34,019 nucleotides of DNA from Alphaproteobacteria bacterium (lineage in GTDB: Bacteria; Pseudomonadota; Alphaproteobacteria; Rhizobiales; Hyphomicrobiaceae), in assembly GCA_024275435.1 (NCBI GenBank), contig JAJRZC010000016.1, positions 1 through 34,019 on the forward strand. Direction: 5' to 3'. Positions 7,827 to 18,430 of the stretch are shown here, one piece after another. The position numbers and the translations under genes are program-made. Position 1 is the first letter of the stretch, and each line of letters starts with the position of its first letter. Below the pieces are notes generated by a model. The model was not told where the DNA came from. It did no database searches and saw nothing but the letters and a program-made list of their open reading frames with translations.

Positions 7827-8471
7827 CTATTGCCCCTCAACGGACGGAATAACCGCTCCACCCGAGGGAACCTTCACCACTTCCACAGCATCCTTTGGAT
7901 TACGGGAAACCTGTTCACTGATCGACTGGCGCTTGACACCCGTCTTGTGTCTCAGCGTTAAAACAATTGCGCCGATCATCGCCACCAGCAGAATAAGACC
8001 CGACACCTGGAAGAAAAACGCATATTTTGTGTAGATAAGCCGACCCAGTGCATCGACATTCGAAATGCCCGAATTCACATCAGGAACCGGTGAGGACACA
8101 GCACCAACCCCCGCGGCACCAAGCGAGAGATCACGAAACGCGAACAAAACAATAAGCTCAGCCAGCACCACGCCGGCAACCAGAAGACCAAACGGAGCAT
8201 TCTTGATGAACCCGGCCTTGAGCTCGGCAAAGTCCACATCAAGCATCATAACGACGAACAAAAACAGCACCGCAACCGCACCAACATAAACGATGACCAG
8301 CAGCATCGCCAGAAACTCCGCGCCCAGCAGCACGAATAGTCCCGCCGCATTAAAAAACGCAAGGATAAGTGACAGCACCGCATGCACAGGATTTCGCGCG
8401 AGAATCACACCCGCGCCCGCCACAACACATAGAATGGCAAAAAGATAGAAAAACACCGCCACCAGGGTCAT
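7827..8471 (-). CDS. nuoJ: NADH-quinone oxidoreductase subunit J
   Basis: Five-helix membrane subunit of complex I whose TM3 forms a pi-bulge at the quinone-channel junction. 214 aa. Seen: NPVHAVLSLILAFFNAAGLF, the TM3 segment with VIVYVGAVAVLFLFVVMML, and the last helix ending LTLRHKTGVKRQ followed by a soluble tail of about 40 residues, as usual in alphaproteobacteria. ATG 8471 overlaps the stop of the preceding 123-aa unknown protein (ATGA). Confidence 0.97.
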   Translation of the reverse strand: MTLVAVFFYLFAILCVVAGAGVILARNPVHAVLSLILAFFNAAGLFVLLGAEFLAMLLVIVYVGAVAVLFLFVVMMLDVDFAELKAGFIKNAPFGLLVAGVVLAELIVLFAFRDLSLGAAGVGAVSSPVPDVNSGISNVDALGRLIYTKYAFFFQVSGLILLVAMIGAIVLTLRHKTGVKRQSISEQVSRNPKDAVEVVKVPSGGAVIPSVEGQ

Positions 8472-8839
8472 TTCAGTTCCGATCCCATCCTCATCATTCC
8501 CTTACCTCGACGCACAAACTCGCCATTAACAGCAGCAAAATGTCTCGACCACAATTTCCGCGCCTTGGCACTCCGGTATATCCAGTAGATCACGATCACC
8601 ACCGGAGCGATCCAATACACACTCTCTATTTTCAAACCAGTTTTCAAATCAGACCAAATCCCCCAACACGCGATACCGACAGCCCATACCAGCGCAACAA
8701 TCTGAAGCCAGAACCATCGACCCGCCAGCGCCAATTGATCCAGTGCGATCTGACCGTATTGCCGAAGCTCCTCAAGCGTAAGCGCTCCCAGCAATTCGCC
8801 CCAGTCTTCAGTGCTTAAGTCATCACCTGTATTTTGCAT
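8468..8839 (-). CDS. Unknown 123-aa membrane protein between nuoI and nuoJ
   Basis: I do not recognise this family. An acidic soluble N-terminus (about residues 1-42, with TEDWGELL and [10 protein letters not shown]) is followed by two transmembrane helices (about 45-66 and 75-92), then a basic C-terminus rich in R and K. ATG 8839 lies inside the last codons of nuoI (17-base overlap), and the stop overlaps the nuoJ start as ATGA, so it is translationally tied to both. This close fit is the main evidence that it is real. A role as an accessory or assembly factor of complex I is inference only. Confidence 0.85.
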
Positions 8840-9311
8840 CAAGCTCAATGTTCTTTGCGATCTCGCGTTCCCAGCGATCCCCATTCGCCAACAGCTTGTC
8901 TTTGTTATAAAACAGCTCTTCGCGGGTTTCCGTTGCAAATTCGAAATTCGGTCCTTCCACAATCGCATCTACCGGACATGCTTCCTGGCACAAACCGCAG
9001 TAAATGCATTTCGTCATATCCAGGTCGTAGCGCGTTGTTCGTCGCGTTCCATCATTGCGTCGCGGACCTGCCTCAATTGTAATTGCCTGTGCCGGACACA
9101 CCGCCTCGCAAAGCTTGCACGCGATACAACGCTCTTCCCCATTAGGATAACGTCGAAGGGCATGCTCACCACGAAAACGCGGCGACAAGGGTCCTTTCTC
9201 AAACGGATAGTTGAGCGTTGACTTGGGCGCAAAGAAATAGCGCATGGTCAGAAAGAACGCCGAAACGAACTCCGTAAGAAACAATGATTTGACGGCCAAA
9301 CCGACACTCAT
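8823..9311 (-). CDS. nuoI: NADH-quinone oxidoreductase subunit I
   Basis: Ferredoxin-like subunit carrying [4Fe-4S] clusters N6a and N6b, which pass electrons from NuoG to N2 in NuoB. 162 aa, usual alphaproteobacterial length. Ligands are complete: C62, C65, C68, C72 and C102, C105, C108, C112 in two CxxCxxCxxxCP motifs. The N-terminal segment ([17 protein letters not shown]) is the amphipathic membrane anchor region. ATG 9311 has AAAGG eight bases upstream. It follows a 72-aa unknown gene and overlaps the next unknown gene. Confidence 0.98.
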
Positions 9312-9337: not shown

Positions 9338-9556
9338 TCAATCAAATACCATCGGTCCGACAAAGTAGCCAAACACAACGAATAAAAACACGTCAACAAC
9401 CGCCACAGTGCGTAGAAGCCGCGCAGATTGATGTTGATCCTCTGTCTTTGCTCTCTCCTCAATATGTTCTGCCAATCCTCTGAGCAATACCAGGGAAATC
9501 AATCCCACACCCAGCCCCACAAGCATACCAAGAACCTCGGGAGACAGACCAAACAT
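9338..9556 (-). CDS. Unknown 72-aa membrane protein between nuoH and nuoI
   Basis: I do not recognise it. The 72 residues form a hairpin of two transmembrane helices (about 6-27 and 51-69) joined by a charged linker containing EHIEERAKTEDQHQSAR. ATG 9556 shares one base with the nuoH stop (TAATG), a classic coupling arrangement; the stop is 26 bases before nuoI. A longer in-frame start at 9634 would lie inside nuoH and has nothing in its favour. Size and topology resemble small single-subunit accessory proteins of membrane complexes, but function is unknown. Confidence 0.8.
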   Translation of the reverse strand: MFGLSPEVLGMLVGLGVGLISLVLLRGLAEHIEERAKTEDQHQSARLLRTVAVVDVFLFVVFGYFVGPMVFD

Positions 9557-10623
9557 TACACCAAGCCCCCAAACTGCAACACGCCCGCAACCACCACCAC
9601 CATCAGCAACGACAAAGGCAGAAAGACCTTCCACCCAAGCCTCATAAGTTGGTCATACCGGTAGCGCGGCACCATCGCTTTCACCATCGAGAACATGAAG
9701 AAAACAAACACCACCTTGCCCAAAAACCAGAAGATTCCTGGAACCCACGTAAACGGCGCAATATTAAGAGGAGGCAGCCATCCACCAAGAAACAGAATTG
9801 TCGTCATGGCGCACATGGTCACGATTGCCACGTACTCGCCAAGCATAAACAACAGGTAGGGGGTCGAAGAATATTCCACCATGAACCCTGCAACAAGTTC
9901 AGATTCAGCTTCAGGCAGATCAAACGGCGGGCGGTTTGTTTCAGCTAGCGCAGAAATAAAGAACACCACAAACATTGGAAACAGCGCCAACCAATACCAA
10001 TCGAGAAATGAGTTCGGCAGCCCCATCGCTGTCCCCAGACCGATCTTTTGCGCATTGACAATAGCGCCCAGGTTGAGAGATCCCGCACACAGAAGTACGG
10101 TGATGATGACAAAACCGATCGAAACCTCATAAGAGATCATCTGTGCCGTCGATCTCAAAGCACCCATAAACGGATACTTTGAGTTGGAGGCCCACCCCCC
10201 CATAATGACACCGTAAACACCAAGCGAAGAGACCGCCAGAATATACAAGATCCCGACATTAAGGTCCGAAATCACCCACAGACCAAAGCCATCTTCATTC
10301 AACGGAATGACAGCCCAGGCTGCTAACGCGAACGTCGCCATTGCAACAGGCGCAAGTAAAAAGACGCCTTTATCGGCACCCGCTGGAATGATGGGCTCCT
10401 TCAAAGCAAACTTCAACAAGTCGGCAAACGATTGCAGCAACCCGAACGGACCAACCACATTGGGCCCGCGCCTCATCTGCACCGCTGCCCAAACCTTGCG
10501 ATCCATCAACAATAGAAACGCAATAATCACCAGCAAGCCCACAAGCACAACAAGGCTGACACCCACGTAAAAAGCGAGCCACAGCCCATACTGCCACAAC
10601 ATATCTATCGTCTCTTGGCTCAT
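9556..10623 (-). CDS. nuoH: NADH-quinone oxidoreductase subunit H
   Basis: Eight-helix membrane subunit that forms the quinone-access chamber with NuoB and NuoD. 355 aa. Seen: [20 protein letters not shown] near the N-terminus, [12 protein letters not shown], the hallmark loop [20 protein letters not shown] with its acidic residues, and GFMVEYSS. The ATG at 10623 is chosen because GGGAGG lies five bases upstream; a TTG at 10635 is in frame but overlaps that ribosome site. Its stop shares a base with the start of the 72-aa gene. Confidence 0.98.
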
Positions 10624-10671
10624 CGAGCCTCCCAAAAAAATCCAGCTGTTTAACAGCTTAATCGCTCGAAC

Positions 10672-14179: not shown

Positions 14180-15166
14180 TCAGGCTTCGTTTTCATTTTC
14201 GTCACGAGCGTTCGCCTTTCGTGCGGAAAATTCGGTTTCACCACCAGACGCCAACACTTTCGCCTGCGAGATCCAGTCTTCCCGTTCAATTCGACCTTTG
14301 AAACTCAAATACGTATCAACCCAATTGGCTGTTTCCTTGCTCCACGAAGCAATCTGATCAAAGTGATAAATACCCAGACCATTGAGTGTTTCTTCTAGTT
14401 TCGGCCCAACGCCACTTATCAGCTTCAAATCATCAGCCTTACCGTCCCGAGGACCACTAAGTGCCTCAGGTTTAGCAGAATTATCTGTTTGAAGGAGGGA
14501 CACTTCGCCAGAGGTCGCTGTCTCAGATATTTCACGCTTACCGGCACGGCTGCCGTCATAAAGTGCCGGATCCGTAAGTGTGGTCGGCCCACCTTGTGGG
14601 CTAGAAGCCTGACGGCCAATCTGCGAGCCTGGTTTGACCGGATTGCCATCCGCAAAACCATCAAGAACCTTTTCAAACAGCTCTGGCGTCAGATCCTCAT
14701 AGGTATCTTTCCAGATCTGCACCATGGGCGCGTTGGCACAAACACCAAGGCACTCCACTTCCTCCCACGAATAATCTCCATCCGCGCTCAACTCATGAGG
14801 CTTGGGTGCAATTCTTGATTTACAAACCGCAATAAGGTCACCGGACCCACGCAACATGCAAGGCGTCGTACCACACACCTGAACATGCGCCTTACGACCC
14901 ACCGGAGACAGCTGAAACATCGTGTAGAAAGTCGCAATCTCATAAACGCGGATGTAGGCCATTCCAAGCATATCGCCAACCAGACGAATAGCGGGTTCGC
15001 ACAACCAGCCATCAAATTGCTCCTGGGCGCGCCACAGAAGCGGTATAACGGCTGACGCCTGCTTCCCTGCTGGATATTTGGCAACCAACTGCTTGGCCCA
15101 GGCTTCGTTCTCCTTCGTAAAGGCGAAACTGGCCGGTTGTTCTGGACACAAACGACGAACGGACAT
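14180..15166 (-). CDS. nuoE: NADH-quinone oxidoreductase subunit E with C-terminal HhH-like extension
   Basis: Thioredoxin-like 2Fe-2S subunit (N1a) paired with NuoF at the NADH site. Ligands C98, C103, C139, C143 are present in VCGTTPC and [10 protein letters not shown]. The core ends near residue 180; a low-complexity linker (about 181-245) leads to a domain at 246-305 starting [20 protein letters not shown], a helix-hairpin-helix-like motif seen as an extension of NuoE in many alphaproteobacteria. Total 328 aa versus about 165 in E. coli. ATG 15166 has AGGGAG six bases upstream, and the gene follows a 468-base gap, so it may have its own promoter. Confidence 0.97.
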
Positions 15167-15634: not shown

Positions 15635-16078
15635 CTAGCCAGAAATATATCGGCCCTTCGCATCTTTAGGGCTCTCATAGGACTGCTGCTGGAGATAATC
15701 CGCAGGTCGCTCATATGCCCAACCCGGACGATCAAAGCCAAACATCACTGAAAGCCAGCCAATTAGTAGCAACACAGTGACAGCCGGGGCCAAAAACAAC
15801 GATATTTGAGAACCAACGCGCAAAAAGCCAATCCAGAACAGCGCCAGCAAAAAACCGCAACCAATTATCATCGCTCCACCCGCATCAACCCCGCGCGAAG
15901 CTGCAAACAACAGCCCCGTCATCAGCGAGGCAACACCCAGAATGACCGGTATCGCTGGTAAATCAGCATGTAACGCACCCATTGGCCAGGAAAACCGCCG
16001 TGCAAACATTCGGTAGGTGGCAAGGCTCAACCCCCATCCAAATGCACCCACAGCAAGCAAAAACAGATTGTCAATCAT
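15635..16078 (-). CDS. Unknown four-helix membrane protein between nuoD and nuoE
   Basis: I do not recognise this 147-aa protein. Four hydrophobic stretches (about 4-22, 42-60, 68-88 and 94-112) are followed by a soluble tail with YERPADYLQQQ and ending ISG. ATG 16078 has GGAG about nine bases upstream; a TTG six bases earlier is in frame. It lies between the DUF4267-like gene and the long gap before nuoE, all in nuo orientation. Its link to complex I rests on position alone. Confidence 0.8.
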   Translation of the reverse strand: MIDNLFLLAVGAFGWGLSLATYRMFARRFSWPMGALHADLPAIPVILGVASLMTGLLFAASRGVDAGGAMIIGCGFLLALFWIGFLRVGSQISLFLAPAVTVLLLIGWLSVMFGFDRPGWAYERPADYLQQQSYESPKDAKGRYISG

Positions 16079-16241
16079 GACCAAAACTCCAATGAGCTTA
16101 GGTTAGGAGGCAAATTACCAGCGAGATAGCAACCCACACCCACAAAGCACCCAAGTTGTAACACCCCACACGGACGCAAGACGCCCAAAGGCATTCCTGA
16201 CATTCTCAACCGGCAAATACCAGCAACGGATGCAACAGAGG

Positions 16242-16637
16242 TTAAGCCAGCTTATGCTCAGCGCGTGCAGCAACACCTGCAGCCAAGCAAAATGCACCAG
16301 AAATCACATGAAAAGCAACCGCTTGCCACGGTCCGGCAAAGCTCGAAACCACATAAGCATCCGAGAAGCAAACAACAGCCCCAGCCAGAAACCAGAGGCT
16401 TAAAGGGCTAAAAGCCCGCGCCAGAGCAAATGCCACAGCCAGCAATCCCAACCACACATCCCGCAACCCGATGACATAATGCAAACCAGGCTGACCCTCA
16501 TAAGCGCCCAGGCCAAAAGTGATCGAAGCGCTGTGGGGCCAAACTAGAAATCTTATCCCAATGACCGTTAAAACAGCTCCCGCCAGCACACCGTAGGCCA
16601 CGACGCGCTCTGCTCTTCCAATTCCAAAAACGGTCAT
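16242..16637 (-). CDS. DUF4267-like membrane protein
   Basis: 131 aa with four hydrophobic segments. The pattern FLVWPHSAS...FGL near the N-terminus, then VIGLRDVWLGLLA, then FSDAYVVSS and a late histidine segment, fits the DUF4267 family as I recall it; function of that family is unknown. Start taken as ATG 16637, which is preceded directly by AAGG; the frame stays open upstream to 16718 but that part is not membrane-like. It lies 125 bases after nuoD and 163 bases before the four-helix protein. Family assignment is from memory of the pattern and moderate. Confidence 0.72.
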   Translation of the reverse strand: MTVFGIGRAERVVAYGVLAGAVLTVIGIRFLVWPHSASITFGLGAYEGQPGLHYVIGLRDVWLGLLAVAFALARAFSPLSLWFLAGAVVCFSDAYVVSSFAGPWQAVAFHVISGAFCLAAGVAARAEHKLA

Positions 16638-16762
16638 CCTTGAGGTGCCCCACCCTAGCAGAAACGTATTGTCCGGACACGGTGTAGGTTCGCACAAAAG
16701 CCGGTCCGACACCAACAATCAGCTAAGATCAAAGCTCAAAAGAAAGAAATTCAATTCTCAGA

Positions 16763-17995: not shown

Positions 17996-18430
17996 TCAGT
18001 CCTTGCTCTCACCGCCAGAAAACGCAGCAAAGACTTCTTCCCCGGTCATCTTCTTCGTGTCATTGGCAAAATCGTAAAAGGACGGCTTTTCATCCACAAA
18101 AATTTCATGAGAGAGAACCAGACCATCCATATCTTCCAAGGCTCCGACAGAAACCACGTAATGACTGCGATCCGCCATGCGCCAAAACAAGTTAGTCCCA
18201 CATTTACTGCAAAACCCACGCTCTCCCCATTCGGAGGATTTATAGACGCCGATCGACTCTTCGCCCGTAAAGGCAACGTCCCCACTAGCATCCAGAACCA
18301 TCAACGGTCCACCGGACCATCTTCGGCACATACTGCAATGGCACGCCGCCACCTCACTCGTTCCCTCACTCACACGAAACGTTACCGCGCCACACAAGCA
18401 ATGCCCTTTGCGTGTCCCATCATCTGCCAT
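17996..18430 (-). CDS. GFA/CENP-V-fold zinc protein inserted in the nuo operon
   Basis: 144-aa member of the glutathione-dependent formaldehyde-activating enzyme (GFA)/CENP-V family. The zinc cysteines are complete: C11 and C13 in CLCG, C30, C32, C35 in CHCSMCRRW, and C74, C77 in FCSKCGTNLF. ATG 18430 has GGAG eight bases upstream. It sits between nuoC (33 bases) and nuoD (42 bases) in the same orientation, so it must be transcribed with complex I unless it is processed. Known GFA enzymes speed formation of S-hydroxymethylglutathione, but most family members have no proven reaction; a role linked to complex I is speculation. Confidence 0.93.
   Translation of the reverse strand: MADDGTRKGHCLCGAVTFRVSEGTSEVAACHCSMCRRWSGGPLMVLDASGDVAFTGEESIGVYKSSEWGERGFCSKCGTNLFWRMADRSHYVVSVGALEDMDGLVLSHEIFVDEKPSFYDFANDTKKMTGEEVFAAFSGGESKD

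Follow-up and report, generated by a model that had tools for sequence, protein, structure and literature searches.

Our analysis suggests, with a confidence only a little above even, that ORF123, an orphan gene lodged between nuoI and nuoJ, encodes a membrane protein that serves complex I as a lineage-specific accessory in Hyphomicrobium-related bacteria. The complex I role is the best reading because of the position of the gene, its copy number, the selection acting on it and a start codon that is apparently kept inside nuoI. Two properties that one would look for in an accessory protein were found: the gene is encoded together with complex I core genes in all 17 genomes that carry it, and it is under purifying selection. 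Note, on the other hand, that the carriers all belong to one family, so that the fixed slot may be nothing else than the inherited synteny of a conserved operon. If the protein is indeed a bound subunit, it would show how a bacterial complex I acquires additional subunits embedded in the membrane; in mitochondria, this step lies too far back to be seen.

Results

The locus

The features of the locus are collected in Table 1; by the window we mean the whole stretch of DNA that was analysed, 34,019 nucleotides in length.

Table 1. Genes and overlaps around ORF123 in the window.
Feature	Position	Strand	Description
ORF123	8468..8839	minus	two-TM orphan of 123 aa, starting with ATG; assessed by homologues, dN/dS and invariant residues
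nuoI	8823..9311	minus	ferredoxin-type subunit, 162 aa; named from sequence and operon order
nuoJ	7827..8471	minus	membrane subunit, 214 aa; named from sequence and operon order
nuoH	9556..10635	minus	upstream neighbour; named from sequence and operon order
ORF123/nuoI overlap	8823..8839	minus	17 bases; ATG within nuoI Asp-Ala codons (GATGCA)
ORF123 stop/nuoJ start overlap	8468..8471	minus	ATGA, 4 bases; seen in no carrier other than the window (1 of 17)
orf72	9338..9556	minus	72 aa, two hydrophobic stretches, in the nuoH-nuoI slot; ATG shares a base with the nuoH stop

The initial annotation had described a frame of this length between nuoI and nuoJ, overlapping the one by 17 bases and the other by ATGA, and its coordinates as well as both overlaps proved exact in the window. 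Counted back from the last base of nuoI, the ATG of ORF123 stands at base 17, and the frame stays open further upstream, within nuoI, to position 8968, giving 166 amino acids. The first residues of the protein, MQNT, correspond to the C-terminal codons of NuoI (DAKYR) read in a frame shifted by one; since they are dictated by these codons, conservation of MQNT is no evidence for an ORF123 protein. Downstream follows a run of membrane-subunit genes, nuoJ-K-L-M-N. A sequence scan of the minus strand from nuoI to nuoJ gave no promoter- or terminator-like match, and a single terminator-like match was found further downstream, within nuoJ (7990-7970, minus strand), to be read against a background of 9 such sites in the region and a mean of 4.7 in shuffled sequence. 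The GC3 of ORF123 is 0.540, compared with 0.534 for nuoI, and the latter has one match at E <= 1e-40 in its own genome.

The operon also contains other genes. Between nuoD and nuoE lie a gene for 149 amino acids, without a Pfam match and hydrophobic by eye, and a DUF4267 gene (15635-16084 and 16242-16718, respectively, minus strand), and between nuoC and nuoD lies a GFA-domain gene (17996-18430, minus strand). The product of nuoE itself (14180-15166, minus strand), at 328 amino acids, has a long tail past the ferredoxin domain, its Pfam match ending at residue 170.

Distribution of ORF123

A search with the single sequence found homologues in 13 of 100 genomes, the own genome included, and from these 13 a profile was built, which finds ORF123 in 17 of 103 family genomes (again with the own genome) and in 7 of 25 genera. 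When the genomes are restricted to a completeness of 90% or more and a contamination of 5% or less, 13 of 76 have the gene. The nearest named neighbours of nuoJ are Hyphomicrobium species and Hyphomicrobiaceae MAGs, which suggests that the family searched is Hyphomicrobiaceae. In every carrier, ORF123 lies between nuoI and nuoJ and points in the same direction; in other words, homologues at this position in relatives, whose absence the initial annotation had named as evidence against its proposal, are there in 16 of the 102 other family genomes. It is a single copy in 16 of the 17 carriers, and in the remaining one (G016, locus L013) the homologue is split into two frames and matched in two pieces, which reflects either a sequencing error or decay.

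Outside the family, no convincing homologue was found in samples of the order (397 genomes), the class (385) and the phylum (299). Namely, the profile matches six genomes of the order sample (four family members and two weak matches), two of the class sample (the own genome and one weak match) and two of the phylum sample (likewise the own genome and one weak match). At most 11 or 15 candidates were scored per genome in these samples, so that a strongly diverged copy could escape. The weak matches (G272, G469, G569 and G143; E 7e-5 to 8e-4) fall within frames of 626, 948, 441 and 820 amino acids and cover the profile in part, and we take them as chance, as we do a match at E 0.09 obtained when the collected loci were searched with hmmsearch (L095).

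Within the family, 86 of the 103 genomes have no match to the profile, and ORF123 is accordingly a dispensable, lineage-specific addition. Some of these absences reflect incomplete assemblies: in the genus richest in carriers, two non-carriers reach a completeness of only 67% and 70%. When the nuoI-nuoJ slot was opened in 24 family non-carriers and in 16 genomes from other families of the order, no homologue was found, and the gaps ranged from 4 to 472 nt in these 40 genomes; the remaining 62 family non-carriers were covered by the profile search only. In particular, nuoI and nuoJ lie 4 nt apart in G018 (locus L026), which belongs to the same genus as the carriers G035 and G047, and 10 nt apart in L073, the sister of the window on the tree, both lacking the gene. 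Together with the 86 genomes without a match, these two close sisters indicate that ORF123 is dispensable. What is more, since carriers and non-carriers coexist within one family, and once within one genus (G018 as against G035 and G047), a direct comparison of the effect of ORF123 would be possible.

The broader setting comes from 170 further loci, 80 named ones and 90 taken from the class sample; the window is included, and some of the loci may represent one genome twice. Both genes are present in 168 of them, at a median distance of 85.5 nt. Open reading frames were sought in the 17 gaps longer than 180 nt, and same-strand frames of at least 100 amino acids were found in three of these, namely the window, L182 and L190. 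Finally, when presence is mapped on a FastTree phylogeny of NuoH/I/J/K (56 tips, rooted at the midpoint and with several weak deep nodes), it takes 5 changes, compared with a mean of 14.7 and a minimum of 10 in shuffles. The presence of ORF123 is clustered on the tree, with losses or transfers.

Selection on the protein and probable selection on its start

For all pairs that allowed an estimate of dS, dN/dS falls in the range 0.09-0.37; the dS values are rough, many of them exceeding 1 and at least nine pairs being saturated. In an alignment of 16 sequences, from which the broken G016 copy was excluded, the members share 29-42% of their residues with the window protein, and ten residues are invariant: L17, L25, Y28, A32, Q35, W97, H100, E107, R110 and R111. 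NuoI, by comparison, is 85-93% identical in the first 12 relatives, so that ORF123 evolves much faster. Judged from these sequence comparisons, ORF123 is a real gene under purifying selection.

Codon use at the start concerns the coupling of ORF123 to nuoI. Namely, the Asp-Ala codons of NuoI yield the ATG of ORF123 when Asp is written GAT, which is the case in 13 of the 17 carriers, where 6.3 would be expected if this position followed the remaining Asp codons of nuoI in each genome (simulated P 0.0004, which is too optimistic given that the carriers are related, seven of them coming from one genus). Taken by genus, GAT is dominant in 5 of 7. Among family non-carriers the same codon is GAT in 8 of 24, with 5.5 expected (Fisher P 0.011 for carriers versus non-carriers), and among other non-carriers there are 56 GAT versus 120 GAC. 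The four carriers with GAC lack the shared ATG and must start at another codon, possibly a TTG in the same frame that lies 25 bases ahead of the nuoI end. All in all, the overlapping start within nuoI looks as if it had been kept by selection.

The junction with nuoJ is looser. Of the 17 carriers, only the window has ORF123 and nuoJ overlapping by ATGA; the nearest nuoJ ATG follows ORF123 at 4-15 nt in 6 carriers, at 59-110 nt in 7 and at 288 nt in 1, and overlaps it by 14 nt in 2. In one carrier (L068), an in-frame GTG is also present at the ORF123 stop. The initial annotation had seen the gene as locked to both neighbours, a view that is supported for nuoI, where codon choice favours the overlapping ATG, but not, as a conserved arrangement, for nuoJ.

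Protein features and searches against known families

The window protein shows the features that had been noted from the sequence: it has two hydrophobic stretches, and its N-terminal part is acidic (net -6), its C-terminal part basic (net +7). The same pattern extends to the 16 intact members: the N-terminal part is negative in 15 and neutral in one, and the C-terminal part is positive in 15 and slightly negative in one. Following the positive-inside rule, both ends of ORF123 would lie in the cytoplasm. A single-sequence structure model (mean pLDDT 64.9, pTM 0.34), with helices at 10-19, 22-67 and 77-121, suggests a long hairpin at best, and this poor model gave 0 matches in a Foldseek search of the PDB.

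The initial annotation did not recognise the family, and this is borne out by our searches, which place it in the nuoI-nuoJ slot only. Namely, the window protein has no credible Pfam, NCBIfam or PDB match, with nothing in Pfam at E <= 1 and no CMD domain, and no Pfam or NCBIfam family reaches its cut-off among the members; the matches of 16 members in NCBIfam are weak, the best at 0.01, and PADLOC gives BnzA for one member at E 0.01. Searches of PDB sequences (two to E 10, one to E 1) returned no complex I chain. We read the PDB profile match to TRAP-gamma (E 0.0083-0.021) and the PDB match to penicillin-binding protein 1B (E 0.19-0.24) as reflecting transmembrane composition. Among the literature matches listed there is no published account of ORF123. 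We also compared the residues of NuoH/I/J/K with the presence of ORF123: the best column scores 0.48, against a 95% point of 0.43 in shuffles that ignore phylogeny, yet it is merely L versus L/I/V, and no residue tracks presence cleanly.

Discussion

Proposed mechanism

If ORF123 is an accessory protein of complex I, one can picture its action as follows. The nuo transcript would carry the gene, and ribosomes would start it inside the end of nuoI. The product would insert as a hairpin of two helices, its two ends remaining cytoplasmic. On the cytoplasmic face would lie an acidic N-terminal helix (conserved L-x7-L-x2-Y-x3-A-x2-Q) and a basic C-terminal helix with the invariant W, H, E and R-R. 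These helices would be found at the meeting point of NuoI with NuoH and NuoJ in the membrane, and in contact with these subunits ORF123 may help to hold or to build the NuoI/NuoH/NuoJ joint, with a possible effect on activity.

Alternative explanations

Would the same observations arise if ORF123 had nothing to do with complex I? A small membrane protein of unrelated function may have landed in the nuo operon and been carried along for its constant expression. We regard this as possible but clearly less likely than an accessory role, and we give it the weight we do because all carriers belong to one family and the operon order is conserved anyway. The operon of the window does contain GFA-domain and DUF4267 genes, unrelated genes occupy the nuoI-nuoJ slot in other alphaproteobacteria (L182 and L190, and a coiled-coil-like protein in L030), and the absence in the two close sisters is clean (gaps of 4 nt in L026 and 10 nt in L073), all of which would suit a passenger. 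Against it, one can argue that an independent role might place copies elsewhere, while no convincing copy outside nuo turned up in any sample, and that the overlapping start is apparently kept by selection. That the frame has no product at all is a reading which the sequences already contradict and to which we attach next to no credence: the ATG at the shared position is missing in four carriers and the frame is broken in G016, but every pair with estimable dS points to purifying selection, and residues stay invariant over deep divergence.

The initial annotation had suggested an accessory subunit or an assembly factor, and a role in complex I need not be that of a subunit. The protein could escort NuoI or NuoJ while the peripheral and membrane arms join and then leave, and its location between nuoI and the membrane-subunit genes nuoJ-K-L-M-N would fit such a part, just as fast evolution and dispensability would be compatible with a helper. 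However, with no Pfam or NCBIfam family at cut-off, no known assembly factor is matched, and nothing here distinguishes such a factor from a stable subunit. We consider a transient factor improbable, and a stable subunit the more likely of the two. Finally, ORF123 might be a small membrane protein of the 8xMP or SLATT kind recruited into the operon. Like ORF123, 8xMP (PF24838) consists of an N-terminal helical part, TM1, TM2 and a charged stretch; 5 of 13 members match it at E <= 1, the best of them at 4.1e-5 and several aligned in much the same register, and one member matches SLATT_1 (PF18181) at 4.2e-4. These scores stay under the curated cut-offs, at best 23.9 bits against 30 for 8xMP and 20.8 against 26.3 for SLATT_1, and the window protein has no match. 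The 8xMP members compared are longer than ORF123, with an extra C-terminal hydrophobic stretch by eye, and hhalign gives a probability of 9.6% against six of them (E 0.0033, a single comparison) and 1.0% against one. The comparison drew on nine 8xMP matches, of which six were aligned, leaving out L251 (internal stops), L252 and L253 (at the cut-off); among the literature matches listed there is no published account of 8xMP. In view of the scores under the cut-offs and the 9.6% in the profile comparison, we reject the kinship, which strikes us as very improbable.

Comparison with known systems

To our knowledge, an extra subunit embedded in the membrane has yet to be described for a bacterial complex I. 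The nearest case in the class is the enzyme of Paracoccus denitrificans, for which an excerpt of PMC11522691 lists four supernumerary subunits, NDUFS4, NDUFS6, NDUFA12 and PIMT, the last being called there specific so far to that enzyme. As ORF123 is proposed to be, these are additions to the core of a complex I from the Alphaproteobacteria, but they sit, in the same excerpt, on the hydrophilic arm and the heel, whereas ORF123 has two hydrophobic stretches. In this respect it resembles NDUFC2 of mitochondrial complex I, which the excerpted part of PMC8762328 describes as two transmembrane helices that bind lipids and core subunits of the membrane arm. Unlike the position proposed for ORF123, NDUFC2 is located at ND2/ND4, with its terminal coils in the intermembrane space (same excerpt), and we found no sequence relation between the two.

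The nuoI-nuoJ slot is put to other uses as well. The proteins of L182 (138 amino acids) and L190 (135 amino acids), from two genomes of one family, share the slot and a similar length with ORF123, but they are unrelated to it and no hydrophobic stretch was found in them; the L190 copy, which was the one tested, matches PF02627 CMD (56.1 bits, 3.8e-15). The uncharacterised frames of the Rhodobacter and Paracoccus nuo operons may include this slot protein. In L030 (G023), which branches off first within the family when the tree is rooted at the midpoint, the slot holds a 121-residue protein that is weakly CCDC90-like (22.9 of 33.5 bits).

The nuoH-nuoI slot

The most interesting lead, in our view, is the joint filling of the nuoI-nuoJ and nuoH-nuoI slots. 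A transmembrane frame of at least 50 amino acids occupies the nuoH-nuoI slot in 15 of the 17 carriers of ORF123 (the exceptions are L002 and L008), compared with 5 of 22 family non-carriers, these being the ones with nuoH located, as two of the 24 lacked it. Fisher's test gives 7e-5, uncorrected for kinship and with several sequence types pooled as one. On this basis we put forward, tentatively and as a rather unlikely extension of our preferred reading, that ORF123 and the protein of the nuoH-nuoI slot form a membrane-embedded supernumerary set of the Hyphomicrobiaceae's own, which would clamp the NuoH/NuoI/NuoJ joint. Such a clamp would be the bacterial counterpart of the accessory subunits that mitochondrial complex I has in its membrane part.

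In the window, the slot is held by orf72, which is rich in glycine and for which Pfam gives nothing above cut-off; Gly-rich proteins resembling it are present in many carriers of ORF123 and in some non-carriers. Elsewhere, other types of small transmembrane frames fill the slot, and frames of a size similar to orf72 are also seen outside the family, within the same order (L039, L043, L045 and L049). In L010, two different small transmembrane frames, of 82 and 68 amino acids, stand there in tandem.
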